The notes below the pieces were generated by a model that did no database searches, was not told the origin of the DNA, and saw nothing but the letters and a program-made list of their open reading frames with translations. The position numbers were made by a program, and so were the translations under genes. A stretch of DNA of 21,928 bases from Spirochaetia bacterium (GTDB taxonomy: Bacteria; Spirochaetota; Spirochaetia; Treponematales; Breznakiellaceae): NCBI GenBank assembly GCA_025997655.1, contig BNUW01000024.1, positions 1-21,928 of the forward strand, written 5' to 3'. Shown in pieces: positions 4,384 through 20,830 of this stretch (position 1 is the stretch's first letter; the number at the start of each line of letters is the position of its first letter).

Positions 4384-4408
4384 AAAAAAAGCGCCCAGCG
4401 CCTTTTTT
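4384..4408 (+). terminator. Terminator-like hairpin before the small-gene duplication
   Basis: AAAAAAAGCGC, then CCA, then GCGCCTTTTTT forms a GC stem continued by A-T pairs (one A/C mismatch) and ends in six T on the plus strand. Read on the minus strand it also ends in a T-run, so it could act in both directions. No plus-strand gene was found upstream for it to terminate, so its function is inferred from shape alone. Confidence 0.4.
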
Positions 4409-4409
4409 G

Positions 4410-4418
4410 TGGTATACT
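4410..4418 (+). promoter_or_regulatory. Extended -10 promoter, copy 1
   Basis: TGGTATACT is an extended -10 element (TGn followed by TATACT, 5 of 6 consensus bases). It lies 27 bp before the first small-protein ATG and ahead of a GGAGG ribosome-binding site at 4435-4439. No -35 match is visible, as is usual for extended -10 promoters. The same motif begins the second copy of the duplication. Confidence 0.5.
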
Positions 4419-4445
4419 ATATAAAGAGCGTAATGGAGGCGCATT

Positions 4446-4739
4446 ATGATGGAAAACCTTGGTATTATGTGCGGTGTCATTCTGGGCCTCTTCGGGTCTG
4501 TTTTCTCGGTTGTCCAGTTTTTTTCCCAGCGGCAACAAGCCGCAAAGGACAGGGAGCTAGCCGCAAAGGAAGCTGCAAAGGAAGCTGCAAGGCAGGAACT
4601 GAGAGACCGTTTGACTATTCTTATGCAGGTGATTATTGATAAAGACATACCCCGTGAATCCCGCCAGCCCTTTTATGACGAGTATATAGCCAAGGGCGGC
4701 AATGGGACGGTTCTCAAATTCTGGCTGGAAAACAAGTAA
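4446..4739 (+). CDS. Small membrane-anchored coiled-coil protein, copy 1
   Basis: The product has 97 residues and no recognised family. GGAGG at 4435-4439 lies 6 nt before the ATG. Residues 5-27 form one hydrophobic segment (LGIMCGVILGLFGSVFSVVQFF), probably a membrane anchor. Residues 28-55 are Ala/Lys/Glu/Gln-rich with AAKE/AAKD repeats and should form a charged helix or coiled coil. Residues 60-97 are a compact conserved tail (IIDKDIPRESRQPFYDEYIA..., ending KFWLENK) that may be a small soluble domain. It has its own extended -10 promoter and is the first of a nearly identical tandem pair just upstream of the toxin-antitoxin array. The topology recalls small phage or accessory membrane proteins, but nothing specific can be assigned. 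Confidence 0.7.
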   Translation: MMENLGIMCGVILGLFGSVFSVVQFFSQRQQAAKDRELAAKEAAKEAARQELRDRLTILMQVIIDKDIPRESRQPFYDEYIAKGGNGTVLKFWLENK

Positions 4740-4767
4740 CGGCGTCAGCACATCGGCTCCGGGGATG

Positions 4768-4776
4768 TGGTATACT
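4768..4776 (+). promoter_or_regulatory. Extended -10 promoter, copy 2
   Basis: TGGTATACT recurs exactly 358 bp after the first copy. The sequence upstream of it differs completely from copy 1, while everything from the -10 element downstream is conserved. The duplicated unit therefore carries its promoter but no -35 region. Confidence 0.5.
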
Positions 4777-4803
4777 ATATAAAGAGCGTAATGGAGGCGC
4801 ATT

Positions 4804-5118
4804 ATGATGGAAAACCTTGGTATTATGTGCGGTGTCATCCTGGGCCTCTTCGGGTCTGTTTTCTCGGTTGTCCAGTTTTTTTCCCAGCGGCAACAGGCCG
4901 CAAAGGACAGGGAGCTAGCCGCAAAGGAAGCTGCAAAGGACAGGGAACTAGCCGCAAAGGAAGCTGCAAGGCAGGAACTGAGAGACCGTTTGACTTTTCT
5001 TATGCAGGTGATTATTGATAAAGACATACCCCGTGAATCCCGCCAGCCCTTTTATGACGAGTATATAGCCAAGGGCGGCAATGGGACGGTTCTCAAATTC
5101 TGGCTGGAAAATAAGTAA
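4804..5118 (+). CDS. Small membrane-anchored coiled-coil protein, copy 2
   Basis: This 104-residue paralogue is almost identical to the preceding gene. It differs by a 7-residue insertion (a second AAKDREL heptad) in the charged helix and one visible substitution (TILMQ to TFLMQ). The extra heptad preserves the helical register, consistent with a coiled coil that tolerates whole-heptad changes. The same promoter and GGAGG site precede it. Its stop codon is only about 35 bp from the start of homology to a truncated toxin gene, so the duplication end and the array end nearly coincide. The function is unknown. Confidence 0.7.
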   Translation: MMENLGIMCGVILGLFGSVFSVVQFFSQRQQAAKDRELAAKEAAKDRELAAKEAARQELRDRLTFLMQVIIDKDIPRESRQPFYDEYIAKGGNGTVLKFWLENK

Positions 5119-5154
5119 CGGCATCAGCACATCGGCGTCGGGAACGAATCCTGG

Positions 5155-5358
5155 GTTGCCCGGTCCGGGGGTGGTAAACGAAGAGGATATAGGTTTATAC
5201 TATTTTTTAGGAAAGGGGAGCGGTTGTTTTTTGACTATGCCTACCCCGAAAAGGAATTAAGGGATTTCAAGAACGTTGCAAAAATGTATTTTGAACTTGC
5301 CGACGATAGAATAAAAGCCCTTGTAAAGGAAGGGCGGCTAAAGGAGATAACGCCATAA
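5155..5358 (+). pseudogene. 5'-truncated HigB/RelE-type toxin remnant (unit 0)
   Basis: The frame from 5155 to the TAA at 5356-5358 encodes VARSGGGKRRGYRFILFFRK and then a toxin C-terminus ending GRLKEITP. This aligns with residues 48 onward of the intact toxins downstream, but the first ~47 codons are absent and no in-frame start exists before the core motif. The join to unrelated sequence is at about 5153. The C-terminal half is clearly more diverged from the other units and lacks a few residues around the NIDNDEL segment. The stop overlaps the antitoxin ATG (TAATG). It should be non-functional as a toxin. Confidence 0.8.
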
Positions 5359-5561
5359 TGAAAAAGTACAAAAGCCCGGCATTTAAGCATATCCACGAAA
5401 CGGCTTTAGACTTCTACAAAGACGGCCTTATAAGCGCCGCCGAAATGCGGGAATTTGACGAGGACTGCCTTGTACCAAAGGCTGATACTTCCACGCCCTC
5501 TGCCGGGGACCGGTCCCCCATGGTCGCCGCCGGTTCCACTCCCCATGAACCCTTAGTTTAA
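5358..5561 (+). CDS. HTH-less HigA-type antitoxin, unit 0
   Basis: This 67-residue protein opens with MKKYKSPAFKHIHETALDFY and continues to MREFDEDCL, the characteristic N-terminal segment of HigA-type XRE antitoxins encoded beside PF06296 toxins (known family pattern: MKYKS..., IHE, MREFDE.CL). In that family an XRE helix-turn-helix of ~55-60 residues normally follows. Here it is replaced by a Pro/Ser/Ala-rich tail ending GSTPHEPLV. The protein may bind toxin but should not bind DNA through an HTH. The start overlaps the stop of the toxin remnant, and AAGGAG lies upstream. It is the antitoxin of a unit whose toxin is dead. Confidence 0.7.
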   Translation: MKKYKSPAFKHIHETALDFYKDGLISAAEMREFDEDCLVPKADTSTPSAGDRSPMVAAGSTPHEPLV

Positions 5562-5605
5562 TAACCCACTAAAGCAAAATCCCCCGTCCCACCCTATAAG
5601 GCTTA

Positions 5606-5630
5606 TTCCGCCGGAAATTTAATTCCGGAA
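5606..5630. promoter_or_regulatory. Twin-palindrome operator candidate, spacer 1
   Basis: Two palindromes lie side by side: TTCCGCCGGAA (5606-5616) and TTCCGGAA (5623-5630). They follow TATAAG (5595-5600), a possible -10 whose start site would fall inside the first palindrome, and precede the toxin ATG at 5652. Toxin-antitoxin operons are commonly autorepressed from such sites. No good -35 box was seen. Confidence 0.5.
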
Positions 5631-5651
5631 GGTTGTAAAGAAAAGGGAACT

Positions 5652-6029
5652 ATGCGTATATTTAAGACAAAGCGGTTTGACCGGCTTTCCGATAAAGCGG
5701 GGATCACCGATGCGGATCTGACTAACGCCGCCCGGGAAGTGGACCGGGGGAAGTACGAGGCCGATTTAGGCAGTGAAGTCTTTAAGAAACGGGTTGCCCG
5801 GTCCGGGGCTGGTAAAAAGGGCGGGTATCGGGTTATTCTGTTTTTCCGTAAGGATGAACGGCTATTTTTTGAGTATGTTTTTGCCAAGTCAAGCCGGGCA
5901 AATATAGATAATGATGAATTAAAATGGCACAAGCAGGTTGCCAAGGAATATCTTGAATATACCGATAAGGAACTGGAAGCCCGTCTAAAAGAAGGGTGGA
6001 TTATAGAGGTAAAGCATGAGGAAGTATAA
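5652..6029 (+). CDS. HigB/RelE-family toxin, unit 1
   Basis: The 125-residue protein matches the RelE-like HigB toxin pattern (PF06296): N-terminal MRIFKTKRFDRL, then EADLGSEVFKKRVARSGAGK, KKGGYRVILFFRKDERLFF, an FAKS segment and a C-terminal helix KQVAKEYLEYTDKELEARL. Family toxins are ribosome-dependent mRNA endonucleases acting in the cytoplasm. The conserved Arg/Lys cluster around residues 45-60 (RVARSGAGKKGGYR) is intact, as is the length (usual range 105-125). AAGGGA sits 5 nt before the ATG. The antitoxin start overlaps its 3' end by 14 nt, so the pair is translationally coupled in the toxin-first order typical of higBA. A twin palindrome lies just upstream. Confidence 0.8.
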   Translation: MRIFKTKRFDRLSDKAGITDADLTNAAREVDRGKYEADLGSEVFKKRVARSGAGKKGGYRVILFFRKDERLFFEYVFAKSSRANIDNDELKWHKQVAKEYLEYTDKELEARLKEGWIIEVKHEEV

Positions 6030-6222
6030 AAGCGCTGGATTTAAGCACCTCCACGGGGAGATGAAAGACCTTTACGAGCGGGGAGATATAACCGCCGAAA
6101 AATTGAGGGAATTTGAACAGGACTGTTTCAAGCCCGCTGCCGATACCTCCCCGAACCTCAGGGGCGCCGCGTCAAATAAAACAACGCCGGCCGATGGCAT
6201 AGTGCATTTCCAAACCGACTAA
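6016..6222 (+). CDS. HTH-less HigA-type antitoxin, unit 1
   Basis: The 68-residue product begins MRKYKSAGFKHLHGEMKDLY and carries the LREFEQDCF motif, matching the N-terminal segment of HigA-type antitoxins. The expected DNA-binding domain is absent, replaced by a tail (KPAADTSPNLRGAAS, ending DGIVHFQTD) unlike that of unit 0. Its start lies inside the toxin gene, which points to coupled translation. It is the presumed partner of the intact unit 1 toxin. Whether this short form neutralises the toxin cannot be judged from sequence. Confidence 0.7.
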   Translation: MRKYKSAGFKHLHGEMKDLYERGDITAEKLREFEQDCFKPAADTSPNLRGAASNKTTPADGIVHFQTD

Positions 6223-6255
6223 AGCAAAATCCCTCTTTCCACCCTATAAGGCTTA

Positions 6256-6280
6256 TTCCGCCGGAAATTTAATTCCGGAA
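6256..6280. promoter_or_regulatory. Twin-palindrome operator candidate, spacer 2
   Basis: TTCCGCCGGAA (6256-6266) and TTCCGGAA (6273-6280) are identical to spacer 1 with the same 6-bp gap, again preceded by CTATAAG. The site lies just upstream of the unit 2 toxin at 6302. It stays unchanged although the neighbouring toxins differ at roughly a third of residues. Confidence 0.5.
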
Positions 6281-6301
6281 CGTTGTAACAGAAAGGGAAT
6301 T

Positions 6302-6670
6302 ATGCGTATATTTAAGACAAAGACATCCGGACGGGACTTAAAAAAGGCGAGCCTTACCGATGCAGAGCTGATTGGCGCCGCAGAGGAAGTAAACCGGGGA
6401 GAGTACGAGGCCGACCTGGGCGGAGATGTATTCAAGAAGCGGGTTGCCCGGTCCGGGGCTGGAAAGTCTGGCGGGTTTCGGGTTATTCTATTTTTTCGTA
6501 AGGATGAGCGGTTATTTTTCGGCTATGTTTTTGCTAAGTCGAACCTGGCAAACATAGCGGATGATAGACTAAAGTGGTTCAGGAAGGTTGCCAAGGAATA
6601 TCTTGAATATACCGATAAGGAACTGGAAGCCCGCATAAAAGAAGGCTGGATAGAGGAGATAGTACCATGA
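6302..6670 (+). CDS. HigB/RelE-family toxin, unit 2
   Basis: The 122-residue toxin is homologous to unit 1 over its whole length. It keeps the EADLGGDVFKKRVARSGAGK core, the GGFRVILFFRKDERLFF strand pair and the C-terminal helix (EYLEYTDKELEARIKEGW). The N-terminal helix (TSGRDLKKASLTDAELIGAA) and the FAKS region differ from unit 1, so the pair has diverged rather than being fresh copies. The predicted role is mRNA cleavage on the ribosome. AAGGGA precedes the ATG and the stop overlaps the antitoxin start as ATGA. Confidence 0.8.
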   Translation: MRIFKTKTSGRDLKKASLTDAELIGAAEEVNRGEYEADLGGDVFKKRVARSGAGKSGGFRVILFFRKDERLFFGYVFAKSNLANIADDRLKWFRKVAKEYLEYTDKELEARIKEGWIEEIVP

Positions 6671-6861
6671 AATATAAAGATGATACCTTTCGATACCTCC
6701 ATGAGGAGATGAAAAACCTTCACACCGCCGGGGACATAACCGCTGCAGAGCTGAAGGAGTTTGAGCAGGAATGCTTTAAGGGCTCCCCGTCCGCAGCGCC
6801 GGCCGACCGTACCGTACACGCTCCCGCCATGGCCGCAAGCCCCGAACCCCAGGGGCACTAA
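6667..6861 (+). CDS. HTH-less HigA-type antitoxin, unit 2
   Basis: The 64-residue protein opens MKYKDDTFRYLHEEMKNLH, has LKEFEQECF, and then a short Ala/Pro/Ser-rich tail ending PEPQGH. DNA after the stop still matches the 3' coding end of the unit 1 antitoxin (the ATGGCATAGTGCATTTCC stretch), so this copy ends earlier at an acquired stop. No HTH is encoded here or in the next 120 bp in any frame examined. It pairs with the intact unit 2 toxin. Confidence 0.7.
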   Translation: MKYKDDTFRYLHEEMKNLHTAGDITAAELKEFEQECFKGSPSAAPADRTVHAPAMAASPEPQGH

Positions 6862-6936
6862 ACAACCCCGGCCGATGGCATAGTGCATTTCCAAACCCAC
6901 TAAAGCAAAATCCCCTTTCCCACCCTATAAGGCTTA

Positions 6937-6961
6937 TTCCGCCGGAAATTTAATTCCGGAA
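6937..6961. promoter_or_regulatory. Twin-palindrome operator candidate, spacer 3
   Basis: TTCCGCCGGAA (6937-6947) and TTCCGGAA (6954-6961) again match spacers 1 and 2 exactly, with CTATAAG just before. The site precedes the deleted toxin of unit 3. Confidence 0.5.
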
Positions 6962-6982
6962 CGTTGTAACGGAAAGGGAATT

Positions 6983-7232
6983 ATGCGTATATTTAAGACA
7001 AAGGCGTTTGGACGGCTTTTAGAAGATGCAGGATTTACCGATGCGGAATTGATAACCGCAACGGAGGAAGTAAACCGGGGAGAGTACGAGGCTAACCTGG
7101 GCGGTGATGTATTCAAGAAGCGGATCGCCCGGTCCGGGGCTGGAAAGTCTGGCGGATTTCGGTTTATTCTGTACTTCTAAAGAGCTGGAAGCCCGTCTAA
7201 AAGAAGGGTGGATTAAGGAGATAATGCCATGA
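6983..7232 (+). pseudogene. HigB/RelE-type toxin with internal deletion (unit 3)
   Basis: The N-terminal 65 codons (MRIFKTKAFGRLL through SGGFRFILYF) are a good toxin start but end at TAA 7178-7180. From 7179, in a shifted frame, the toxin C-terminus resumes (KELEARLKEGWIKEIMP) and stops at TGA 7230-7232, overlapping the antitoxin ATG. Comparison with units 1 and 2 shows that about 40 codons, from RKDERLFF to EYTD, are missing with a frame change. A stable active toxin is unlikely. Confidence 0.8.
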
Positions 7233-7435
7233 AAAAGTATAAAAGCACCGCATACGAGCATCTCCACGAAGAGATAAAGAATCTTGTACAGGCCGGAGAT
7301 ATGAGCGCCGCCGATCTGAAGGAGTTTGAACAGGAATGCTTCAAGGGCTCCCCGTCCGCAGCATCGGCCGGCCGTACCGTACACGTTCCCGCTATAGCCA
7401 CCGCCGGTTCCACTCCCCATGAACCCTTAGTTTAA
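7229..7435 (+). CDS. HTH-less HigA-type antitoxin, unit 3
   Basis: The 68-residue protein begins MKKYKSTAYEHLHEEIKNLV and carries LKEFEQECF, followed by GSPSAASAGRTVHVP as in unit 2 and then by GSTPHEPLV as in unit 0. The tail is therefore a mosaic of two other copies. AAGGAG at 7215-7220 is 8 nt before the ATG. It remains open although its toxin is destroyed. As the last gene before the secretion operon, with no terminator seen after it, it may be co-transcribed with gspD. Confidence 0.7.
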   Translation: MKKYKSTAYEHLHEEIKNLVQAGDMSAADLKEFEQECFKGSPSAASAGRTVHVPAIATAGSTPHEPLV

Positions 7436-7482
7436 TACCCCACACTAAAGCAAAATCCCCCCGTCCCACCCTATAAGACTTA

Positions 7483-7505
7483 TTCCGCCGGAAATTTAAT
7501 TCCGG
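7483..7505. promoter_or_regulatory. Fourth, truncated operator copy directly before gspD
   Basis: TTCCGCCGGAA (7483-7493) is intact, but the second palindrome stops at TTCCGG (7500-7505), where homology to the other spacers ends. CTATAAG (7471-7477) is retained. The unit sits 27 bp before the chosen gspD start, so the array spacer, with its possible -10 box, forms the immediate upstream region of the secretion operon. Confidence 0.5.
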
Positions 7506-7531
7506 CCAACATGAGAACAACGGGTGGCGCC

Positions 7532-9508
7532 ATGAAGCACAAATACGGTTTTCTTATTCTGCTGGCGCTGGCCGTAAGCCAGGGCTTGTACGCACAGCGG
7601 ATGAAGAGTATGGATTTTCGGAATCAACAGATAACGGATATCCTTATGGCCCTGGCTGAAATTTCGGGGACCTCCATCATTGCGGATGAAACCGTGGAGG
7701 GCGCCGCCTCGTTTCACTTTACCGATTCTGACTTTGAGGATTCCCTGGCTGTTTTCCTTTCTTCCTACAATCTTTTTGCTGCACGGGACGGAACGGCAAT
7801 CCGGGTTTCCCGTATACAGAGCTCAATGAGCGGAGAAACCGGCCTGGTTACTCTGCGGGCCAGGGAGGTGGCGGTAGAAAAGCTGCTGCGAACCCTGGCA
7901 AAAATCTGGAACACTACGATCCTCCACGATCCCCTGCCCCGCCTTAATCTTTCGGTGGATATAGAGGGCCTGCGCCCGGAGCAGGTTCTGGATATTCTTA
8001 TCCAGCCCCTGGAAGAGTTTACCCTTGAAACAAAGGATGTTTACTATTATATCCGCCATACCGGTGCAGGCGCATCCCGTCAGGCCGCATCCCTTGCCCA
8101 GGGGATACGGCGGGAGGGGGAAACCTATGGCATCGCCCTGGAGAACACGCGGTTCCTTGAACTTCTCCCGGAACTTTTCAAGCAAGCGGAACGGGAATAC
8201 GCCATCCTTACCAAGGCCGACGGTATGCTGGAAAACCTGTACTACTCGGGAAAAGATTTCGACAGCCTGCTGCGGATCATTCTTGAACAGGGGAACGCCG
8301 ATTATGTGATCCACAACGATATCTACTATATTATTGAACTACCGCGCAGGGATATTATCAAAAAATTAAAGGGTACCAGGATTGTGCCCCTCAACTATTT
8401 CCCGGTACAGGATTTGCCCGCCCTGCTGCCGGCGGATTTAAGCGCGGGGAACAGTCTCAAGATTGATAAGAAAACTAACAGCGCCATTGTTAGTGGAACT
8501 GCGGAGGAAATAAACCCGCTCATTGCTTTTATTGCAGCCATTGACCGGCCCGGCGAAAACTGGCCCATCACGCTGAAGTACATAAAAACCGAGGAGCTTC
8601 TTAAGGCCCTGCCCCCTTCGGCGGCGAAGGAGGAAATTACCGATTCGGGGTTTCCCAACCTTGTTTTTTATACCGGCCCACGGGAAAAGCGGGAACTGTT
8701 CCTGAAGGACCTTGCGCATATCGACCGGCCTAAACCGCAGATACGCTACGAGCTGCTGGTCATCGAATACATGAAAAACAAGGAAGCCCGGATGAGCAGG
8801 GGGCTGCAGATTGGCCCCACCAAGGAAGGAGCCGGGGGCGCATCCTTTCTGGGAAACCTTTCCAATGTGATGAACCTGAGTTTTGACGTGGTTGCCCAGT
8901 TCGGCTACCAGTTTGCCGCAAACCTGAACGTTCAGCTTGGGGACAATACCGCCGAGGTGTATGCCAATACCACCCTGAACGGCCTGACGGGGCAGGAAAT
9001 TAAATTCCAGAACACCGAAACCTACCGTTACCAGGAATTTGAAGTGGACGCCGATACGGGGAATGTTTCCCGCACCGGGGTAACCAGGGAAATTACCTCG
9101 GGGCTCATCGTTACCCTGAACGGCTGGGTGTCCGGGGATGATATGATCACTATTTCTGTCGCCGCCACGGTATCGAAACAGAACAACAATTCTACCGATT
9201 CCAGCGCCCTGCCCTCAACCTCGGAGCGGGTGGTGAATACCCATGTCCGCACCCCCTCGGGAAAACCGGTGGTACTCAGCGGCCTGATGAAGGAGGACAC
9301 CAATAAAATGGTCAAGAAGGTTCCCCTGCTTGGGGACATACCTTTACTGCGGATGCTCTTCCGGGATCATGCGAATACAAAGGAGAAAACGGAGATCGTT
9401 ATCTACATCGTCCCCTACCTTACCCGGGACAATGGCAATGAAGAACAGGATGCATCCCTGCGGTTTGAACGGTACTACCACAGTTTAGTGGAGGGACACC
9501 TCAAATGA
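7532..9508 (+). CDS. gspD: Type II secretion secretin GspD
   Basis: The 658-residue product forms the outer-membrane channel of the type II secretion system. The ATG at 7532 is chosen because it starts a signal peptide (MKHKYGFLILLALAVSQGLYA) and has GGTGG 4 nt upstream; an in-frame ATG at 7511 would add seven residues. An N0 domain occupies about residues 25-92 (MDFRNQQITDILMALAEISG), followed by further N-type ring domains to about 400. The secretin core begins near RYELLVIEYMKNKEARM and ends with the hallmark VPLLGDIPLLRMLF and TEIVIYIVPYL. It is first in a tightly packed operon, and its stop overlaps gspE by 4 nt. The upstream region derives from the toxin-antitoxin array. Confidence 0.93.
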   Translation: MKHKYGFLILLALAVSQGLYAQRMKSMDFRNQQITDILMALAEISGTSIIADETVEGAASFHFTDSDFEDSLAVFLSSYNLFAARDGTAIRVSRIQSSMSGETGLVTLRAREVAVEKLLRTLAKIWNTTILHDPLPRLNLSVDIEGLRPEQVLDILIQPLEEFTLETKDVYYYIRHTGAGASRQAASLAQGIRREGETYGIALENTRFLELLPELFKQAEREYAILTKADGMLENLYYSGKDFDSLLRIILEQGNADYVIHNDIYYIIELPRRDIIKKLKGTRIVPLNYFPVQDLPALLPADLSAGNSLKIDKKTNSAIVSGTAEEINPLIAFIAAIDRPGENWPITLKYIKTEELLKALPPSAAKEEITDSGFPNLVFYTGPREKRELFLKDLAHIDRPKPQIRYELLVIEYMKNKEARMSRGLQIGPTKEGAGGASFLGNLSNVMNLSFDVVAQFGYQFAANLNVQLGDNTAEVYANTTLNGLTGQEIKFQNTETYRYQEFEVDADTGNVSRTGVTREITSGLIVTLNGWVSGDDMITISVAATVSKQNNNSTDSSALPSTSERVVNTHVRTPSGKPVVLSGLMKEDTNKMVKKVPLLGDIPLLRMLFRDHANTKEKTEIVIYIVPYLTRDNGNEEQDASLRFERYYHSLVEGHLK

Positions 9509-11010
9509 AACTGATGAGCATGAACGACTACAACCCCATTCCCGAAGGCTCATCCCAGTACCCCATAGAATTTATAGATGCCCGTGGCCTAATCAAACTC
9601 CGGGAGGATGAAAACCGTGTGGAGATTGGGTTTACCGAAAAGGCAGAGGAGTGCGTAAAAAACAGTCTTTATAATTTTCATCAGAAGCCGGTGGTGTTTA
9701 TACCCATCGACGCGGCGGAACTGTCCGCCTTTCTGGGAAATAAGATGGGGGAAGCGGCGGCGGACGAAAAGAAGAATATTCCCGCCGATGATCGGGTACT
9801 ATTGGACAAACTGGCCAACGACGCGCCGGTTATCAACCTGGTCAACTCCATCTGCATCGAGGGGATACGCTGCGGGGCGTCGGACATCCACCTGGAATCC
9901 GCAGGAACACTACGCGACAGTACCGGCGCAGGGGAATTGCGGGTCCGCTACCGGCAGGATGGGGTGCTGCGTACCGTGCGTACCATTGAGGGCAGCCGCT
10001 TCCCGGCAATTTCCTCCCGGATAAAAATAATGGCCAACCTGAATATCCTTGAACGGCGGCAGCCCCAGGACGGGCGCATCACCGTAACGCTGGGGAATGA
10101 TCAGGTGGACTTCCGGGTATCCATTGTGCCGGTGGCCGGCGGGGAATCCATTGTGCTGCGTATCCTGGGGAGAAAGGCCGCGGGTTCCCTGGAAGACCTG
10201 GGGTTCAATCAACCGCAGCTTGGGGTGTTACGCCAATTGCTCAGGATGCCCCACGGGCTGATCCTGTTGACCGGCCCCACGGGAAGCGGCAAGACCACTA
10301 CCCTGAACGCCATGCTGCGGGAACTGGTTTCGGACACCGTTAAGATTATTACCATTGAAGATCCGGTAGAGTTTCTGATGGAGGGGGTGAACCAGATACA
10401 GATTAACGAACAGATTGGCCTTGGTTTCGATGTGCTGCTCAGGCGGGTACTGCGGCAGGACCCCAATGTGATCATGATCGGGGAGATCAGGGATTCCGCC
10501 ACCGCGGAGATTGCCCTCCGTGCGGCTTTAACGGGCCACCTGGTACTGTCCACCCTCCACACCAACGATACTGCGTCTGTCATACCCCGCCTCTGTAATA
10601 TGGGCGTTGAACCCTACCTTATCGCATCGGTGCTGCGGGGGGCCGCTGCACAGCGCCTGGTCCGGCGGGTCTGCCCCCGGTGCGCGGAGGAGCGGCAGGC
10701 GGCGCCGGAGGAACAGCGGCTGCTGGATGCGGCAAACATAGCCGCGCAGCATCTCTACCGGGGACGGGGATGCCCTGCCTGCGGGCACACGGGATTTTCC
10801 GGGAGGATTGTGGCGGCGGAACTATTCACCTGCGACGCGGGGCTTGAGGAACTTATCCTGGGAGGGGCAAATATCACCGCCCTTTCGGCGCACCTCCGGA
10901 AACAGGGCATGAGGACCCTGCTGGAGGACGGGCTGGAAAAGGCGGCGCTGGGGATTACCACCATTGAGGAAGTGGAACGGGAAATTATACTTCCGGGGGA
11001 GGGGAAATAG
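9505..11010 (+). CDS. gspE: Type II secretion ATPase GspE
   Basis: This 501-residue cytoplasmic hexameric ATPase powers pseudopilus assembly. Visible motifs are Walker A GPTGSGKT (257-264), Asp box IEDPVE (284-289), Walker B VIMIGEIRD (322-330) and His box HLVLSTLHTND (345-355). The tetracysteine zinc element is reduced to CPRC (390-393) and CPAC (423-426) with ~30 residues between them, as in classical GspE. The N-terminal ~100 residues are a divergent N1E-type domain, and ASDIHLES near 125-132 marks N2E. The ATG overlaps the gspD stop. All catalytic motifs are present, so it should be active. Confidence 0.95.
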   Translation: MKLMSMNDYNPIPEGSSQYPIEFIDARGLIKLREDENRVEIGFTEKAEECVKNSLYNFHQKPVVFIPIDAAELSAFLGNKMGEAAADEKKNIPADDRVLLDKLANDAPVINLVNSICIEGIRCGASDIHLESAGTLRDSTGAGELRVRYRQDGVLRTVRTIEGSRFPAISSRIKIMANLNILERRQPQDGRITVTLGNDQVDFRVSIVPVAGGESIVLRILGRKAAGSLEDLGFNQPQLGVLRQLLRMPHGLILLTGPTGSGKTTTLNAMLRELVSDTVKIITIEDPVEFLMEGVNQIQINEQIGLGFDVLLRRVLRQDPNVIMIGEIRDSATAEIALRAALTGHLVLSTLHTNDTASVIPRLCNMGVEPYLIASVLRGAAAQRLVRRVCPRCAEERQAAPEEQRLLDAANIAAQHLYRGRGCPACGHTGFSGRIVAAELFTCDAGLEELILGGANITALSAHLRKQGMRTLLEDGLEKAALGITTIEEVEREIILPGEGK

Positions 11011-11012
11011 TA

Positions 11013-12044
11013 ATGCGAAACCATTTTGAAAAGGCGGTTCTGGAATTTACAGAGATGATGGAACTGCTCCTGGAATCCGGCTTGACCATCAGGGACGCGC
11101 TGGAGACCTTCACCATTATTGATAGTAATGATCTGGGGAGGAAGCTCCTGGGCTATATCCACAAGGGCGCTTCCTTTGCCCAGGCGGTAGAATTAATGGA
11201 TGACTGCTTCCCGCCGATTTACCGGGGGATGATTAGGGTGGGAAACGCGGTGGGTTCGGTGGAACGGATATTTCCCCGGCTCAGCAAGTATCTGCGGGAT
11301 AAGAAAAAATTGCGTGACAAAATTTCAGGGGCGCTGATCTATCCGGCGCTGGTGCTTATCGTTGCGTTTCTCTTAACCCTGGGCCTGGTACTCTTTGTCA
11401 TGCCAAAGATGGAACTTATCTTTGCCGGATTTGGGGGAAACGCCGGGACCGGCATACGCCGCAATGTACAGGCGCTGGAACTGGGGCTTCTCATCCCGGC
11501 ATCTATGCTCATCCTTATTTTCGGCGTACTTGGTTTCATCAGAAAAATGGAGAACAGGTATCCTGTGCTTAACCGCCTTATTGATCGCCTTCTCCTGCGC
11601 CTTCCCCCGGCAGGCGGATTTATCACTTCCTGGGAAACCTTTAACTTTGCCTTTGCCATGGAGGTATTGACCGGGGGCGGCATAGCCGTGGAGGACGCCA
11701 TCAAGGAAGCGGCGGGCCTGGTTTCCAACAAACTCTACCGCCAATCCCTGTTCCGGGTACGGGAGCGGGTATTAAACGGCGGGAGCCTTGCCCGTTCTTT
11801 TCTGGAGGACGCCATTTTCCCGCCCTGCCTGGGCCACTGGGTAGCCTGCGGAGAGCGGGCGGGAAAAACAGAAAGCGTATTCGCCCAGATACGGTCCTAC
11901 TTTCAGGATGATGTTGAACGCAGAAGTTCTAAGTTCATCCTGCTTATAGAACCGGCAATGATTGCGGTAATAGGGATAGTAATTCTCTGTCTGGTCACCG
12001 GCATTTTACTCCCCCTGTTTTCGGCATACGGAACTATTTTATGA
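11013..12044 (+). CDS. gspF: Type II secretion inner-membrane platform protein GspF
   Basis: The 343-residue polytopic platform protein couples GspE to the pseudopilus. It has two cytoplasmic helical repeats (about 10-105 and 205-305), each with the family pattern LLESGLTIRDAL / VLTGGGIAVEDAI and later RVGNAVGSVE / ACGERAGKTE. Membrane segments lie at 107-131, 156-176 and 308-334. It is shorter than the usual ~400 residues because it lacks the extra N-terminal region before the first repeat. It starts two bases after the gspE stop, with GAGGGG upstream. Confidence 0.92.
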   Translation: MRNHFEKAVLEFTEMMELLLESGLTIRDALETFTIIDSNDLGRKLLGYIHKGASFAQAVELMDDCFPPIYRGMIRVGNAVGSVERIFPRLSKYLRDKKKLRDKISGALIYPALVLIVAFLLTLGLVLFVMPKMELIFAGFGGNAGTGIRRNVQALELGLLIPASMLILIFGVLGFIRKMENRYPVLNRLIDRLLLRLPPAGGFITSWETFNFAFAMEVLTGGGIAVEDAIKEAAGLVSNKLYRQSLFRVRERVLNGGSLARSFLEDAIFPPCLGHWVACGERAGKTESVFAQIRSYFQDDVERRSSKFILLIEPAMIAVIGIVILCLVTGILLPLFSAYGTIL

Positions 12045-12057
12045 AAGGAGAATTTGT

Positions 12058-12483
12058 ATGAAACGAAAAAAAAGTGAAGAGGGCTGGACCTTTATCGAGA
12101 CCCTCATTGTAATCGCCATCATCCTGATCCTGACCTCTTCGGTGGGATTTACGGCGGTAAAGTACCTGGATAAGGCAAGGGCAGTCACCGCCCGAAGCCA
12201 GATAGAAACCTTCAGCCTGGCCATGGACGCCTACTTCTTCGACTGCGGCCATTACCCTCCGGACGGCCGGGGCCTTGCCGCTCTCTGGGAAAAACCGGAT
12301 GCCGAAACCGGTTTCTGGAACGGGCCCTATATCAATAAGCCCGTGCCAAAAGACCCCTGGGGGAATGAGTATGAATATCTCATGCCGGGGCAGAACAATA
12401 TGCCCTATGGTATCCGCTGTTTCGGCAGGGATGCTAAGGAAAACGGGGAGGGGAATGATGCAGACATCTGTTCCTGGGAATGA
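12058..12483 (+). CDS. gspG: Major pseudopilin GspG
   Basis: The 141-residue product is the main pseudopilus subunit, processed by a prepilin peptidase not encoded in this window. AAGGAG lies 7 nt before the ATG. The cleavage site is EEG|WTFIE (Gly9, Trp10), with the conserved Glu at +5 but Trp at +1 where Phe or Met is usual. A hydrophobic helix follows (TLIVIAIILILTSSVGF). The C-terminal domain has GspG signatures: HYPPDGRGLAALWEKP, PVPKDPWGNEYEYLMPG, and a calcium-loop end with GNDADICSW. It is the first of four pseudopilin genes in a row. Confidence 0.93.
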   Translation: MKRKKSEEGWTFIETLIVIAIILILTSSVGFTAVKYLDKARAVTARSQIETFSLAMDAYFFDCGHYPPDGRGLAALWEKPDAETGFWNGPYINKPVPKDPWGNEYEYLMPGQNNMPYGIRCFGRDAKENGEGNDADICSWE

Positions 12484-12676
12484 AAGCGGCTTTGTACTCT
12501 TAGATGCGCTCTTCTGCCTCTTTACGGCGGCACTGATACTGTTACTAATCTCCGGCGCCGTTTCGTCAGCCCTGAATCTTTCGTCAAAAACTTTTGCCGC
12601 CGGTATTAGTATTATTGAAGAAAGAAACGATACCGCCGCCCGTATCATTGACGGAGGGGAACTCCATGAAAAATGA
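12455..12676 (+). CDS. gspI: Short minor pseudopilin (GspI-like)
   Basis: This 73-residue protein starts at ATG 12455, inside the end of gspG (29-bp overlap), behind GGGGAGGGG. A prepilin-type site ESG|FVLLD is followed by a hydrophobic helix (ALFCLFTAALILLLISGAV), so it should enter the pseudopilus tip. The residue at +5 is Asp rather than the usual Glu. Minor pseudopilins of this class are normally ~110-130 residues; here the globular domain is almost absent. Identity as GspI is inferred from its place between gspG and gspJ; GspH is the alternative. Confidence 0.65.
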   Translation: MMQTSVPGNESGFVLLDALFCLFTAALILLLISGAVSSALNLSSKTFAAGISIIEERNDTAARIIDGGELHEK

Positions 12677-13169
12677 TGATGGATTTACCCTGATGGAAAC
12701 CCTTACTGCCCTTGCATTGGTCAGCCTTATCATGACCATCATTGCCCTTGCCCTGTCTTCTGCCGCCGGGGTTTGGACACAATCCAGGGACAGGGCGCTG
12801 TTCGCCGTGAGGCTCCTCCGGGCGGATTCCCTTGTCCGCAGCAGGATAGGCGCGGTGGCAATTCCGTACTGGGAAACACCGGTTCTCTTAGCCGCAGATT
12901 CATCGGTGACGATCCCCTGGTTCGAGGGGGAGCGCAGCGGCTTTGTGCGGCTCCGGGCGGAAGATGACCGCCTGATCATGGAAACCGGGGAAAAAAGAAA
13001 AACGGAACGGATTGTGCTGCTCTCGGGGCTTGAGGGGACGGAGCTTTCCATACTCCGGGACGAGCGGCATATCCCCGGCGGTATCGGCGTTACCTATTTT
13101 CATAAGCAGAAAAGCTACCATACCCGGTCGGCCTTTGCATCATTCCCCATCCGGAGGGGCAATCCATGA
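12666..13169 (+). CDS. gspJ: Minor pseudopilin GspJ
   Basis: The 167-residue protein begins at ATG 12666 behind GGAGGGG. It has a short leader and canonical site DDG|FTLME with Glu at +5, then the helix TLTALALVSLIMTIIALALS. The remainder is a strand-rich domain (IPWFEGERSGFVRL, ERIVLLSGLEGTELSILRD) typical of GspJ. With GspI and GspK it would form the tip complex. It overlaps the previous gene by 11 nt and gspK by 4 nt. The internal ATG at 12594 suggested by the longer frame is rejected because it would precede the prepilin leader. Confidence 0.82.
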   Translation: MKNDDGFTLMETLTALALVSLIMTIIALALSSAAGVWTQSRDRALFAVRLLRADSLVRSRIGAVAIPYWETPVLLAADSSVTIPWFEGERSGFVRLRAEDDRLIMETGEKRKTERIVLLSGLEGTELSILRDERHIPGGIGVTYFHKQKSYHTRSAFASFPIRRGNP

Positions 13170-14203
13170 AACAAGCGGTTGAAACTCATGAAGCAGGATT
13201 CGCATCAATGATATTTCTCTTTGCGCTATTCCTCGTATCGGCCCTCACCATTGGCGCGGCCTGTTATATTGCTCAAGCGACGGTGATCCTGGGGCTTGAA
13301 AAAAGCAATACTATTGTCATGCAGGAAATGGATGCCCTGCTGGATGATATAACCGGCGATCTTCTGTCCGACCCAAGCCCCGAAGTAAACGGCATTGATG
13401 ATCCGGTGTGGGCATGGAACGGAAAGACGATAAACGGGTATACCATATCCGTGTTACCAATTTCAGATCGTATCAATCCAAACCTGGTACGAAAAAACAT
13501 CTTCGATAAAACAGGGCTTTCCCGGCTTTTCCGTCCCGGACACACGGCGGATGATCTGCAGCAATTCAGGGAGGATGCGGGGTTATACCTTGCGGGGGAT
13601 GCTTTTCAGGATTTCTTTGAGGAAAGGGTTTTCACAAAATATTTTTCCCCCTATGGCTGGGCGAACATCAACCTTACCGACGAATTTGCCGCCCGGTCAT
13701 TGGGGACAGCCCTTACCGGTGATCCGCTCAAGGGGGAAGCGCTCCGGGACGCAATACGGCTGCTCCTCCTGGACCGGCGGCTCATGGACCGGGAAAATCT
13801 TCCGGCCTTTCTGGGGGCATCCTTCGGGGAACTCTATCCCTTCATAAATGCCGAACCCCTGATGAATATCAACTTTGTGGAAAAGCTGATCCTGGGGGAA
13901 CTCCTCGCCTACCCCGACTATCACATCCGGCGGCCGGAGACAATCTGCGCCGAAGTGGTGAGCAGGCGTTCAAGGGAAAGTATTGGCACAGAAGATCTGT
14001 GCTCAATTCTGGGAATAGATAAAACCAACCCGCTTTTTTACTATCTTGGCTGCATAACCTGGTTTTGGGAAATCACCATCCTAACAGAGCAGGGAGATAA
14101 GAAGGATCATTCCCTCAGAGCGGTGGTATGCAGACTGCCTCCGGGGACAAATCCGGCGGAGTCTTCGCCGGTGTATAAAATTATTGAACGGAGGTTTACC
14201 TAA
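13166..14203 (+). CDS. gspK: Minor pseudopilin GspK
   Basis: At 345 residues this is the large minor pseudopilin that caps the pseudopilus. The leader ends EAG|FASMI, so +5 is Ile: GspK proteins are the pseudopilins that lack Glu5. A hydrophobic helix (IFLFALFLVSALTIGAACYI) and a large alpha-rich domain follow. FSPYGWANINL resembles the GspK N-x-N segment before the second half of the domain, where saposin-like helices (ENLPAFLGASFGELYPFINA, NINFVEKLILGELL) repeat. It starts at ATGA overlapping gspJ, and its stop overlaps the next ATG (TAATG). Confidence 0.85.
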   Translation: MKQAVETHEAGFASMIFLFALFLVSALTIGAACYIAQATVILGLEKSNTIVMQEMDALLDDITGDLLSDPSPEVNGIDDPVWAWNGKTINGYTISVLPISDRINPNLVRKNIFDKTGLSRLFRPGHTADDLQQFREDAGLYLAGDAFQDFFEERVFTKYFSPYGWANINLTDEFAARSLGTALTGDPLKGEALRDAIRLLLLDRRLMDRENLPAFLGASFGELYPFINAEPLMNINFVEKLILGELLAYPDYHIRRPETICAEVVSRRSRESIGTEDLCSILGIDKTNPLFYYLGCITWFWEITILTEQGDKKDHSLRAVVCRLPPGTNPAESSPVYKIIERRFT

Positions 14204-14628
14204 TGCAGCCCATCGCCATATGTAAGGATCGCGGGTTTTTGATTTCTCCCCTGGACATACCGGTGTATATCCTGGAACTGCCGGCGACCCCTTCAGGTTC
14301 GTTGTTGAAGGAGCCGTTTCTTGAAGGAGAGATACTACATCAGTTAAAAGCACTTTACCCGGGAACGCCGGATACTACGCTTGTCGATTATAAAATATAC
14401 CGGAGCAAAAACCGGAACAAGGTGCAAACAGCAGCGGTATTCGTAAGCTCCCGCCCGCGCCATGCAGTTTACCTGAATCTTAAGCGGCCCCTTATTCCCG
14501 GGGTTACCATCATGTCGGCGGGCATGTGCCGCATGCAGCGAAGATGCGCGGGAAACTTCGGCGCAAACGGATTAGCTATCCTCTGTACCCCGCAATGGAT
14601 CGAGGCGGCTTTTTTGCGGACGGCTTGA
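14203..14628 (+). CDS. gspL: GspL-like cytoplasmic domain, N-terminal part (frameshifted)
   Basis: This frame encodes 141 residues starting MQPIAICKDRGFLISPLDIP. The position after gspK, and the actin-like-fold flavour of the first ~105 residues, fit the cytoplasmic domain of GspL, which binds GspE. The last ~35 residues (RRCAGNFGANGLAILCTPQW...) look out of frame, while the overlapping frame reads sensibly (RISYPLYPAMDRGGFFADGL). A one-base frame change somewhere between 14484 and 14628, most likely about 14520-14560, would join both parts into one ~380-residue GspL. A true mutation, a sequencing error and recoding are all possible. Confidence 0.6.
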   Translation: MQPIAICKDRGFLISPLDIPVYILELPATPSGSLLKEPFLEGEILHQLKALYPGTPDTTLVDYKIYRSKNRNKVQTAAVFVSSRPRHAVYLNLKRPLIPGVTIMSAGMCRMQRRCAGNFGANGLAILCTPQWIEAAFLRTA

Positions 14629-15344
14629 TCCGCCGGTATGAATCATGTCACCCGGATGCCGGTGAGCTGCCCCCCACCCTGCTGGCCCCCTTTCTGAACG
14701 GGCCTGAACCACGGGATATACCGGTGCTTCTTATCAATGCCGGTATTACCGAAAAACAGAAGGAAGAAACAGAAACGGTGTTGAATCAGCTTTTTAACCG
14801 GGTAATGCCTGTTGACATTGAAGAAATTCCCATAAAGGGGTCATTAAAAAACGCCGGGGTCTTTAACGATACAAAAAGCCGTTCCCTGATCCGCCGGAAG
14901 GGAAGCATACGGATACTGGCGGCCTTAAATTGTATTGCCCTGTTACTATCCCTGCATATAATCACCGTAAAAACAAATCGGGAACTGTACCGGTTGAAAG
15001 GATATTGTCAGGAGCAGGCTCAAAGACGAAACGAGGCGGAACGGTTGGAGGGGGAAATTACGGAATTAGTATCACGGCAAAGGGGGATCAAGGATACGCA
15101 GCGTAATCCCTATGGGATCATTTCCCAACTCCAATCCTGCCTAAAGGAGGCCTGGATAAAATCCCTGGTACTACAGGGGGATACCTTCAATCTGGAAGCC
15201 GAGGGGGACGATTCAATCGGGGTGTTACAATCACTACAGGGTTCCGGTTATTTTAGCGGGGTAACCCTGCACCAGGCTTCCCCGTCAAATGCTTCCGGGG
15301 AGCAGTTCACTATTTCAGGGAGGATAAGCGGCCATGAAAAATAG
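14526..15344 (+). CDS. gspL: GspL-like C-terminal part with membrane anchor (frameshifted)
   Basis: The frame starts at a GTG at 14526 without a convincing ribosome-binding site, supporting its being the second half of a broken gspL rather than a separate gene. It completes the cytoplasmic domain (GGFFADGLIRRYESCHPDAG, DIPVLLINAGI), then has one membrane helix near residues 128-150 (ILAALNCIALLLSLHIITV). The periplasmic part starts with a charged coil (REL...QEQAQRRNEAERLEGEI) and ends in a small alpha/beta domain (WIKSLVLQGDTFNLEAEGDD, FTISGRISG) of the ferredoxin-like type found in GspL and PilN. It overlaps gspM by 11 nt. Confidence 0.65.
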   Translation: MPHAAKMRGKLRRKRISYPLYPAMDRGGFFADGLIRRYESCHPDAGELPPTLLAPFLNGPEPRDIPVLLINAGITEKQKEETETVLNQLFNRVMPVDIEEIPIKGSLKNAGVFNDTKSRSLIRRKGSIRILAALNCIALLLSLHIITVKTNRELYRLKGYCQEQAQRRNEAERLEGEITELVSRQRGIKDTQRNPYGIISQLQSCLKEAWIKSLVLQGDTFNLEAEGDDSIGVLQSLQGSGYFSGVTLHQASPSNASGEQFTISGRISGHEK

Positions 15345-15819
15345 CAAAACTACTTTGTTGATTCCCCTTTTTCACCTGATCTTTTCCGCTGTTTTCATAT
15401 TTATTTTTATTGGCAGTATCCGGGAAATCCATAGCATCATTGAATCCATGGATCATTACCGGAATGCGGCAAGCGAAATACAGCCCCTTTCTCAAGGCTA
15501 TCTTTCCCGGTTGGAAAACCTGGCAAGGGATCTGCGGGACCAGGGTCCGGAATCAGCGGCGGAATTTTCTGCGGAGGACGGCTTTGCCATGATCCGCGAT
15601 TTACTGCGCACCCGGGACATCACGGTGGAACGGTTCAGGACCACCGGAAAGGGAAACACTGCGGCGGCAGAATTTATCCTGAACAGCAATGGCGTTGATT
15701 TCCTTAATTTTCTTAAAGGGGCCCAGGAATTTTCAATACCCCTAAGCTATATCGGCATCAAACCGGCGCCGAATTCTTCAACACTCAACGTTACGGTGAG
15801 GTTTAACCATGTACCGTAA
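15334..15819 (+). CDS. gspM: Type II secretion assembly protein GspM-like
   Basis: The 161-residue bitopic protein partners GspL in the inner membrane. Residues 8-28 form the anchor (LIPLFHLIFSAVFIFIFIGSI), followed by a helical segment (SQGYLSRLENLARDLRDQG) and a ferredoxin-like domain (FAMIRDLLRTRDITVERFRT, AAAEFILNSNGVDFLNFLKG). This layout matches GspM and PilO. The assignment relies on topology and on position after gspL, since sequence conservation in this family is low. It overlaps the next gene by 11 nt. Confidence 0.72.
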   Translation: MKNSKTTLLIPLFHLIFSAVFIFIFIGSIREIHSIIESMDHYRNAASEIQPLSQGYLSRLENLARDLRDQGPESAAEFSAEDGFAMIRDLLRTRDITVERFRTTGKGNTAAAEFILNSNGVDFLNFLKGAQEFSIPLSYIGIKPAPNSSTLNVTVRFNHVP

Positions 15820-16249
15820 ACTATTTTTCGCCGGCATTGCGCTTGCCATCGGGATTCCCCTCTTTCCGCTGGGCGCACTGTTTTTCCTTTCAAAGAACCG
15901 GACGCCCGTCCCTGTGGAGAAATTACCGGAAAGCATAATCATCCCGAATTATGTACCGGAAATACGGGAACCTGATCCGCCCCAAATCAGCGCGGAACAA
16001 TTGGCCCTTGTTTTCCGGCCCCCGGTTAATAAGCCGCCGCTGCGGGTGAAGGCATCTGAGAAAGCGGTGGATACACAATACAGCTATCTTGGTTTAATAC
16101 GGGAAAACAACGGACAGGAATGGCTGTACCTGAAGGAAAACGAAACCGGCAGGCTTATCTCAATTGGCGCCGGCGAGATGGTATCAAAAACGCAGGAATA
16201 CTGTGTAGTGAGCATTGACGGCACACATTATTTTATCAGGAGGAATTAG
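15809..16249 (+). CDS. gspC: GspC/PilP-like secretin-coupling protein
   Basis: The 146-residue bitopic protein has an N-terminal anchor (residues 6-28), a Pro-rich linker (about 33-75), then a small beta domain (YSYLGLIRENNGQEWLYLK, ENETGRLISIGAGE, YCVVSIDGTHYFIRR). That resembles the homology region of GspC, and equally PilP, which contacts the secretin N0 domain. The C-terminal PDZ or coiled-coil domain of classical GspC is missing. It lies at the end of the operon after L and M rather than at the front. The call rests on architecture and context. Confidence 0.6.
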   Translation: MYRKLFFAGIALAIGIPLFPLGALFFLSKNRTPVPVEKLPESIIIPNYVPEIREPDPPQISAEQLALVFRPPVNKPPLRVKASEKAVDTQYSYLGLIRENNGQEWLYLKENETGRLISIGAGEMVSKTQEYCVVSIDGTHYFIRRN

Positions 16250-17168: not shown

Positions 17169-17552
17169 TTATTCTAACCCGGCCAGTCCCGCCAGTCCTT
17201 CAACCCCTTCCGGCAGCGGCTCAGGCTCGGGCTCCGCTTCGACGGCCGGGGCCGGCAGGGCGCCCTGTGCCAGGGAAGACCGCAGGCCGAAGAGCTTGAT
17301 CCCCTCATCAGGGAAACTTGCCTTAACCGTGGCAACCGCCCGCTCTATGCCCTGGGCTTCCGCTTCCTCACACCAGATCACCAGCACAAAGTTTTCCTCC
17401 GGCCAGATGGCATCCCCCATCTTGGGGCCGGCATGGCCGACCCCCATGGCCACGGGATACCGGGTGTAGTATTGGCCCACATGCTCTGCGGCCAGGGCCT
17501 CAAGGATGTTCTCCTCCACCGAGTGGTTCGCGATTATTTCTATCCGGATCAT
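17169..17552 (-). CDS. P-II-like protein associated with RND transporter (PG0541 type)
   Basis: This 127-residue cytoplasmic protein starts MIRIEIIANHSVEENILEAL and runs through VAMGVGHAGPKMGDAIWPEE and NFVLVIWCEEAEAQGIERAV. That is a ferredoxin-like alpha/beta pattern resembling nitrogen-regulatory P-II proteins. Small proteins of this type are encoded next to HAE1-family RND pumps in other anaerobes (PG0541 family), where the role is unproven; regulation of the pump is a reasonable inference. Residues after ~95 form an Ala/Pro/Glu-rich tail (EAEPEPEPLPEG, then GLAGLAGLE). It overlaps the pump stop codon by 4 nt (ATGA), so the two are translationally coupled. Confidence 0.75.
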   Translation of the reverse strand: MIRIEIIANHSVEENILEALAAEHVGQYYTRYPVAMGVGHAGPKMGDAIWPEENFVLVIWCEEAEAQGIERAVATVKASFPDEGIKLFGLRSSLAQGALPAPAVEAEPEPEPLPEGVEGLAGLAGLE

Positions 17553-20818: not shown

Positions 20819-20830
20819 GACTGTCCTCCC

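Follow-up and report, generated by a model that had tools for sequence, protein, structure and literature searches.

Short HigA-type antitoxins without a helix-turn-helix domain as a lineage trait in a spirochaete family

A passage of PMC2701414 describes type II antitoxins as two-domain proteins that are both neutralising and autorepressing. What remains of such a system when the repressor half is missing is the question raised by contig BNUW01000024.1 of a Spirochaetia bacterium (Breznakiellaceae; assembly GCA_025997655.1), here called the window and analysed over its full 21,928 nucleotides (nt), which are a whole contig of a 2.74 Mb draft genome (69.7% complete). Between 5149 and 7435, four short open reading frames (ORFs) of 67, 68, 64, and 68 aa alternate with toxins of the PF06296 (HigB-type) family, toxin first. 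An earlier note, made from the sequence alone, took them for HigA-type antitoxins that keep the N-terminal segment and lack the XRE helix-turn-helix (HTH) domain. The analysis showed that the short form is a lineage trait of the window's family of termite-gut spirochaetes, where it is the usual form. This family-wide natural loss of the repressor half and of an operator-like word, with a sister HigBA group intact, makes the need for autorepression open to direct inquiry, and the short-type system lets one ask what replaces autorepression and how small a neutralising antitoxin can be. Among the matches listed for titles and the beginnings of abstracts, no description of HTH-less HigA-type antitoxins, or of toxin-antitoxin systems of termite-gut Treponema, was found.

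The origin of the short proteins was evaluated with an alignment of five HTH antitoxins that excluded the window copies. Three window copies matched its N-terminus (5358, E 3.7e-8; 6019, E 4.4e-4; 6667, E 8.3e-4), copy 4 not being listed at E ≤ 0.01, and a profile built from short forms in turn matched the N-termini of HTH forms. Because the HTH antitoxin alignment and a scan of named genomes share this segment, the short protein, judged by its sequence, is the N-terminal part (about 40 residues) of an HTH antitoxin, in agreement with the HigA-type segment claimed before. The lack of an XRE domain was likewise confirmed for all four ORFs (5358-5561, 6016-6222, 6667-6861, and 7229-7435, all on the + strand), as a six-frame search of the full stretch with a profile of 11 relatives' XRE domains gave no match (best E 0.8); XRE was the only kind of DNA-binding domain sought across the window. 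This empty six-frame search also excluded, for this sequence, a frameshift with the HTH in another frame. Past the conserved Cys codon, only 171-208 nt are left before the next gene begins, and full-length relatives extend about 66 codons further. None of the four proteins reached a Pfam or NCBIfam cut-off, with one weak match to DUF4315 (E 0.13) and one to GdhA (E 0.19).

The distribution of the short form was then assayed in two collections. In a named-genome scan with the toxin alignment (best 80 of 142 loci), the segment (profile E ≤ 2.3e-4) was followed by an XRE domain in 32/32 loci outside Spirochaetota, among which one record is named only 'bacterium' and the XRE frame of L156 ends early. 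The 48 spirochaete loci of the same scan comprised 43 short forms (one, L188, almost without tail), three HTH forms (L132, L141, and L136), and two loci at a contig edge, that is, the short form in 43 of 46 readable loci. In the window's own family, PF06296 was matched in 71 of 195 genomes, and the survey was confined to strong matches (E 1.3e-29 or better; 76 loci, L037-L112). Its 80 toxin ORFs, three of them shorter than 100 aa and with one place counted twice, were accompanied by 74 short antitoxins (L056 and L108 ending right past the segment) and three HTH antitoxins (L061, for which HTH_3 is shown, L092, and the fused L066), three lying at a contig edge; the short form thus occurred with 74 of 77 readable toxin ORFs, and the survey of spirochaete genomes suggested in the earlier note did find it. 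In L066, which is also L136 (G135), the toxin and a full HTH antitoxin form one open frame of 236 aa. Among 392 sampled genomes of the phylum, one strong match fell outside the family, G385 (E 1.5e-31), whose antitoxin has an HTH by eye. When both sets were pooled, an XRE domain lay within 600 nt past the segment in 36/36 HTH-type vs. 0/119 short-type places, counts in which the collections share records and the short type corresponds to 79 distinct antitoxin starts.

The loss of the HTH is not general in these genomes. Weaker PF06296 matches of the family (E 1e-13 and worse) form a separate sister HigBA group, in which an XRE-domain protein lay 3' of the toxin in 16/16 sampled loci (15 genomes), two of such loci being held by G003; genomes of the family therefore keep HTH antitoxins there. 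The segment profile matched none of the 16 sampled sister loci, whose HigA has another N-terminus. A full-length antitoxin with the N-terminus of the short form, which might serve in trans, was seen neither in the window's own genome, at its 69.7% completeness, nor in G003 and G032.

When 19 short forms were used as queries in a protein search, 485 proteins were found, of which the best 120 were listed; the 60 of these that were read measured 52-93 aa, and none had an HTH by eye. Source annotations call several short proteins HTH proteins or YiaG-type regulators, a naming at odds with the absent HTH. Among phages, one weak match to window antitoxin 2 was found (33% identity, E 3e-3). A contig filed as viral, L203 (IMGVR_UViG_3300002119_000219), carries a toxin and a short antitoxin of the same kind.

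The features of the array are as follows.

5155..5349, + strand: toxin copy 1, a remnant with the C-terminal part of PF06296 only (profile 48-120, E 7.5e-9)
5358..5561, + strand: short antitoxin 1, 67 aa, adjoining the toxin remnant; N-terminus vs. HTH antitoxin alignment, E 3.7e-8
5576..5649, + strand: intergenic repeat and toxin leader of unit 2, with the CCGGAA-ATTTAA-TTCCGG inverted repeat
5652..6029, + strand: toxin copy 2, intact, PF06296, HigB2-like (E 1.4e-39)
6016..6222, + strand: short antitoxin 2, 68 aa, overlapping the toxin end by 14 nt
6226..6299, + strand: intergenic repeat and toxin leader of unit 3, from the repeat search
6302..6670, + strand: toxin copy 3, intact, PF06296 (E 1.8e-37)
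6667..6861, + strand: short antitoxin 3, 64 aa, with an ATGA overlap with the toxin stop
6907..6980, + strand: intergenic repeat and toxin leader of unit 4, from the repeat search
6983..7180, + strand: toxin copy 4, broken, N-terminal half only, ending at a stop
7178..7231, + strand: C-terminal remnant of toxin copy 4 past an internal loss, repeat family, read in the sequence
7229..7435, + strand: short antitoxin 4, 68 aa, adjoining the broken toxin, from the ORF list
7452..7505, + strand: fourth intergenic repeat copy, 3' of the last antitoxin, from the repeat search

The array was previously described as a tandem higBA-like one, which held for the four antitoxin copies and had to be amended for the toxins, as only toxins 2 and 3 are full length against PF06296 and the other two are remnants. 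Two of the pairs look functional, while the other two antitoxins look to have outlived their toxins. A repeat of 53-74 nt with the inverted repeat stands before toxins 2, 3, and 4 and after the last antitoxin, and a search of the window's own genome found no copy of it outside the array. We consider it rather probable that the array consists of tandemly copied HigBA-like modules of the kind that prevails in the window's spirochaete family. Elsewhere in the same genome, contig C42 holds an open short antitoxin of 70 aa behind an apparent toxin remnant. Other small arrays occur in L039, L043, and L055, where the first toxin is truncated and its antitoxin open, as in the window.

Broken toxins in two of the four window units, and degenerate copies on contigs C39 and C99 of the same genome, could mean that the short antitoxins are themselves remnants of HTH antitoxins in dying modules. 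This is very unlikely, since short forms adjoin intact toxins across the family, their antitoxins are preceded by a Shine-Dalgarno (SD) sequence in 72/79 cases, and a tail motif is common within the clade; the breakage in the window is confined to toxins, and the antitoxin frames there have remained open. Consistently, pairwise comparison of the segment of the window copies gave synonymous differences (pS) of 0.61-0.91 vs. nonsynonymous differences (pN) of 0.19-0.35. The proposal of a stable lineage of short antitoxins rather than random decay was therefore upheld by the intact toxins alongside and by pN well below pS. Antitoxins are repeatedly found with no intact toxin beside them (copies 1 and 4 of the window; L011, L024, and L030), and the short proteins might accordingly no longer neutralise their own toxin and act as immunity against incoming modules; most surveyed short antitoxins, however, adjoin an intact toxin that needs neutralisation, in a survey that started from toxins, and we regard such a role as highly improbable.

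Past the segment, the short antitoxins diverge. Among 91 distinct ones, mean identity was 42% in the segment vs. 17% in the tail, a stretch with a median of 27 residues, 60% of them Pro, Ala, Ser, Thr, Glu, and Lys, which is variable and probably disordered. The tails had been called unrelated, which did not hold: window copies 1 and 4 have the tail end STPHEPLV in common, a PA[MI]A motif occurs in copies 3 and 4 as well as in other clade members, and many tails of the clade end in SVK-like letters, so that tails are, by their letters, related within the window's clade. In 73 one-to-one pairs, the identity of the toxins correlated with that of the segment (0.52) more than with that of the tail (0.38), both above all 300 permutations, although shared ancestry alone would give these correlations too. 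One might suppose that the tail took the place of the HTH as a working part, either marking the antitoxin for degradation or binding a partner, with stability rather than repression setting the antitoxin level. Tail ends do recur (TA in 18/91, A in 27/91, SVK-like letters in several of the window's clade), and PaaA2, also without a DNA-binding domain, is degraded by ClpAP and ClpXP according to a passage of PMC8630535. Yet an identity of 0.17 between clades speaks against a universal signal, and Ala makes up 16.8% of tail residues anyway; we hold a working tail to be unlikely.

The region upstream of the toxins was compared between the two types. A 15-nt palindromic word (the TAGCTCTNAGAGCTA or ACACTNAGTGT form, up to 2 mismatches) was found upstream of 24/27 HTH-type toxins and in 0/75 short-type leaders, the window's included (shuffled, 0.05), of which the first count is descriptive, the words having been chosen from the HTH set, and the second means the absence of these words only. 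A palindrome scan without given words found arms of 7 in 6/27 HTH-type vs. 4/75 short-type leaders. The operator-like site thus appears to be gone together with the HTH, which suggests another control of the toxin-antitoxin pair.

Start codons and translation signals were assayed next, the toxin profile being used to locate the starts (102 distinct kept; 23 dropped for lack of a start, a late profile begin, or a contig edge). The 75 short-type toxins start with GTG in 47 cases, ATG in 27, and TTG in 1, and HTH-type toxins with ATG in 23/27. Of the 47 GTG toxins of the short type, 39 have a -10 box whose end lies 5-8 nt ahead of the start codon (shuffled, 7.4), and a whole promoter with 16-18 nt spacing occupies the same place in 24/47 (shuffled, 1.3), so that the transcript is expected to start at that codon or close to it; SD-like letters precede only 3/47 of these starts. 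The same box was present in 9/27 short-type ATG toxins (shuffled, 2.6) and in 0/27 HTH-type toxins. Short-type antitoxins start with ATG in 75/79 and have an SD in the 72 cases given above (shuffled, 22), and the toxin stop, TAG in 17/20 where frames agree, is often part of the antitoxin SD (by eye). In excerpts of PMC9031893, leaderless GTG messages are far less efficient than AUG ones in E. coli and efficient in some other bacteria. Inspection by eye of L054, L058, and L102, all of the window's clade, showed similar small ORFs (MNQFGRTMPSRPICKKGKYAYI-like) overlapping the start of the toxin; each begins about 6 nt after a -10 box and may be a leaderless upstream ORF.

Taken together, we lean towards a minimal HigA-like antitoxin, made of a toxin-binding segment and a variable tail, in a module without autorepression whose toxin-antitoxin ratio is set by translation. 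The antitoxin would have been cut down to the segment of about 40 residues and its tail, and the segment would fold on the toxin and block it by analogy with V. cholerae HigA2 on HigB2, the N-terminus of HigA2 being the toxin-binding, neutralising part in a passage of PMC11006873. No transcriptional autorepression of the module would remain. The ratio could be kept safe by poor initiation of the toxin (often a leaderless GTG; in the window an ATG with SD-like sequence), against which the antitoxin would be initiated strongly, from a start coupled to the end of the toxin gene. The earlier note had held that repression would need another DNA-binding partner; it is simpler to suppose that this module abandoned autorepression by its antitoxin. 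A more specific version, in which HTH and operator were lost together in the family while autorepression was kept in the sister system, and a leaderless GTG toxin message vs. an SD-led, coupled antitoxin start now sets the ratio, is put forward tentatively, as possible but short of probable.

Several results weigh against the reading of a module without autorepression and under translational control. The window leaders, in which the operator-like word is missing, carry another inverted repeat (CCGGAA-ATTTAA-TTCCGG). The window's own toxins start with ATG behind an SD-like sequence and are not leaderless by the -10 box criterion. BrnT toxins of the family, used as a control (L238-L267; profile-placed starts, 31 rows, one without start), show a -10 box 5-8 nt before the start in 15/30, with ATG in 29/30. 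By this same geometry in the control, a leaderless toxin mRNA was rejected as a mark of HTH loss and is retained only within the proposed mechanism; toxin genes of these genomes may commonly give such messages, beyond the short-type system. Only the GTG excess (47/75 vs. 1/30) and the missing operator word are specific to the short-type system. RNA structure over the toxin SD in the window leaders was not significant (z 0.63, -0.12, and -1.30), and the structure models of toxin and antitoxin are single-chain fusions. Sequestration of the toxin SD by the repeat leader, hinted at by a first fold, was accordingly dropped after comparison with shuffles; SD pairing runs in 11 clade leaders, with the window's first toxin codons rather than each locus's own placed behind every leader, were mostly at chance, apart from a run of 8 nt in L102, whose predicted SD accessibility is not low.

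The toxin tree also fails to favour one loss. Over 111 toxins, the short label required 4 changes (shuffled mean 28.7), and a single change was found in 0/200 bootstrap trees; more than one change is forced by no well supported branch. A weak branch places seven short rows among the HTH rows from outside the spirochaetes, and the HTH members of the family, three in number, form one clade (98/92) inside short rows. One loss, several losses, or transfer all fit this tree and are indistinguishable by it.

The remaining points against belong to a rival in which repression is split or borrowed, a separate XRE protein binding the DNA either from an adjacent gene, as PaaR2 does for PaaA2-ParE2, or in trans. 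PaaA2 lacks a DNA-binding domain (in the part of PMC8630535 concerned), and the inverted repeat in the window leaders would suit such a partner. Two loci of the window's clade have an XRE-like ORF shortly upstream of the toxin: that of L096 encodes 79 aa and leaves a gap of 47 nt, and that of L109 encodes 91 aa and leaves one of 56 nt. A neighbour survey of 69 short-type loci (up to two longest ORFs each side, within 0.9 kb) gave a clear XRE gene near 5/69 (L126, L076, L109, L075, and L195) and a doubtful one in L103, with L096 and L097 added by eye. Sister HigA, with an HTH in 16/16 sampled loci and in two of G003, could therefore act in trans, and its existence raised the weight of borrowed repression and lowered that of a working tail. 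On the other hand, most of the 69 loci have no XRE gene among the ORFs examined, none was found in the window by the XRE profile, the genes found differ from one another, and the neighbour profile was seeded with some of them, which makes its E-values flattering; sister HigA also differs at the N-terminus, without a segment match. A separate repressor may thus serve some loci, and no general one was seen among the 69; as an account of the system, split or borrowed repression seems to us not very likely, and the module without autorepression is retained as the preferred reading.

Around the array, a tandem duplication of about 360 nt (4408-5142) gives two near-identical small proteins of 97 aa (4446-4739) and 104 aa (4804-5118), both hydrophobic at the start and carrying a KDRELAAKEA repeat, which have no Pfam match at cut-off. 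By eye, a type II secretion operon (secretin, ATPase, inner-membrane protein, and pseudopilins; 7511-16249) begins 75 nt past the last antitoxin, and an RND-type efflux pump with a membrane fusion protein lies on the - strand (17549-21826).

Among known systems, the PF06296 toxin and HTH antitoxin loci outside spirochaetes (Proteobacteria, Desulfovibrio, Acidobacteriota, and others) have homologues of both genes and the same N-terminal segment, and differ by an XRE antitoxin of about 105 aa, a palindromic operator-like word, and a toxin start that is mostly ATG. The sister HigBA loci of the family, found as weak PF06296 matches, likewise have a HigB-type toxin followed by an antitoxin, unlike the window in their HTH (16/16 sampled) and other N-terminus. 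The paaR2-paaA2-parE2 system of E. coli O157:H7 resembles the short type in an antitoxin without DNA-binding domain and differs in that the operon itself encodes a regulator, PaaR2, for PaaA2 (as given in parts of PMC8630535), whereas short-type loci show no conserved third gene; in the window operon no XRE domain was found, other regulator types not having been searched for. Integrons of the Treponema denticola type, which include HigBA among their toxin-antitoxin cassettes (in a passage of PMC4909258), are alike in Treponema, HigBA, and repeats between units; they differ in that the window repeat is confined to the array in its own genome, where attC structure and integrase were not searched for. 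HigBA2 of Vibrio cholerae combines an HTH domain in HigA2 (37-104) with an operator made of one inverted repeat, while the window module has neither the C-terminal XRE HTH nor the operator-like word and carries another inverted repeat in its leaders; what it shares with the HigBA2 and HigA (XRE) family is a RelE-superfamily HigB toxin directly upstream and the N-terminal segment, matched by 3/4 window copies at E ≤ 8.3e-4.

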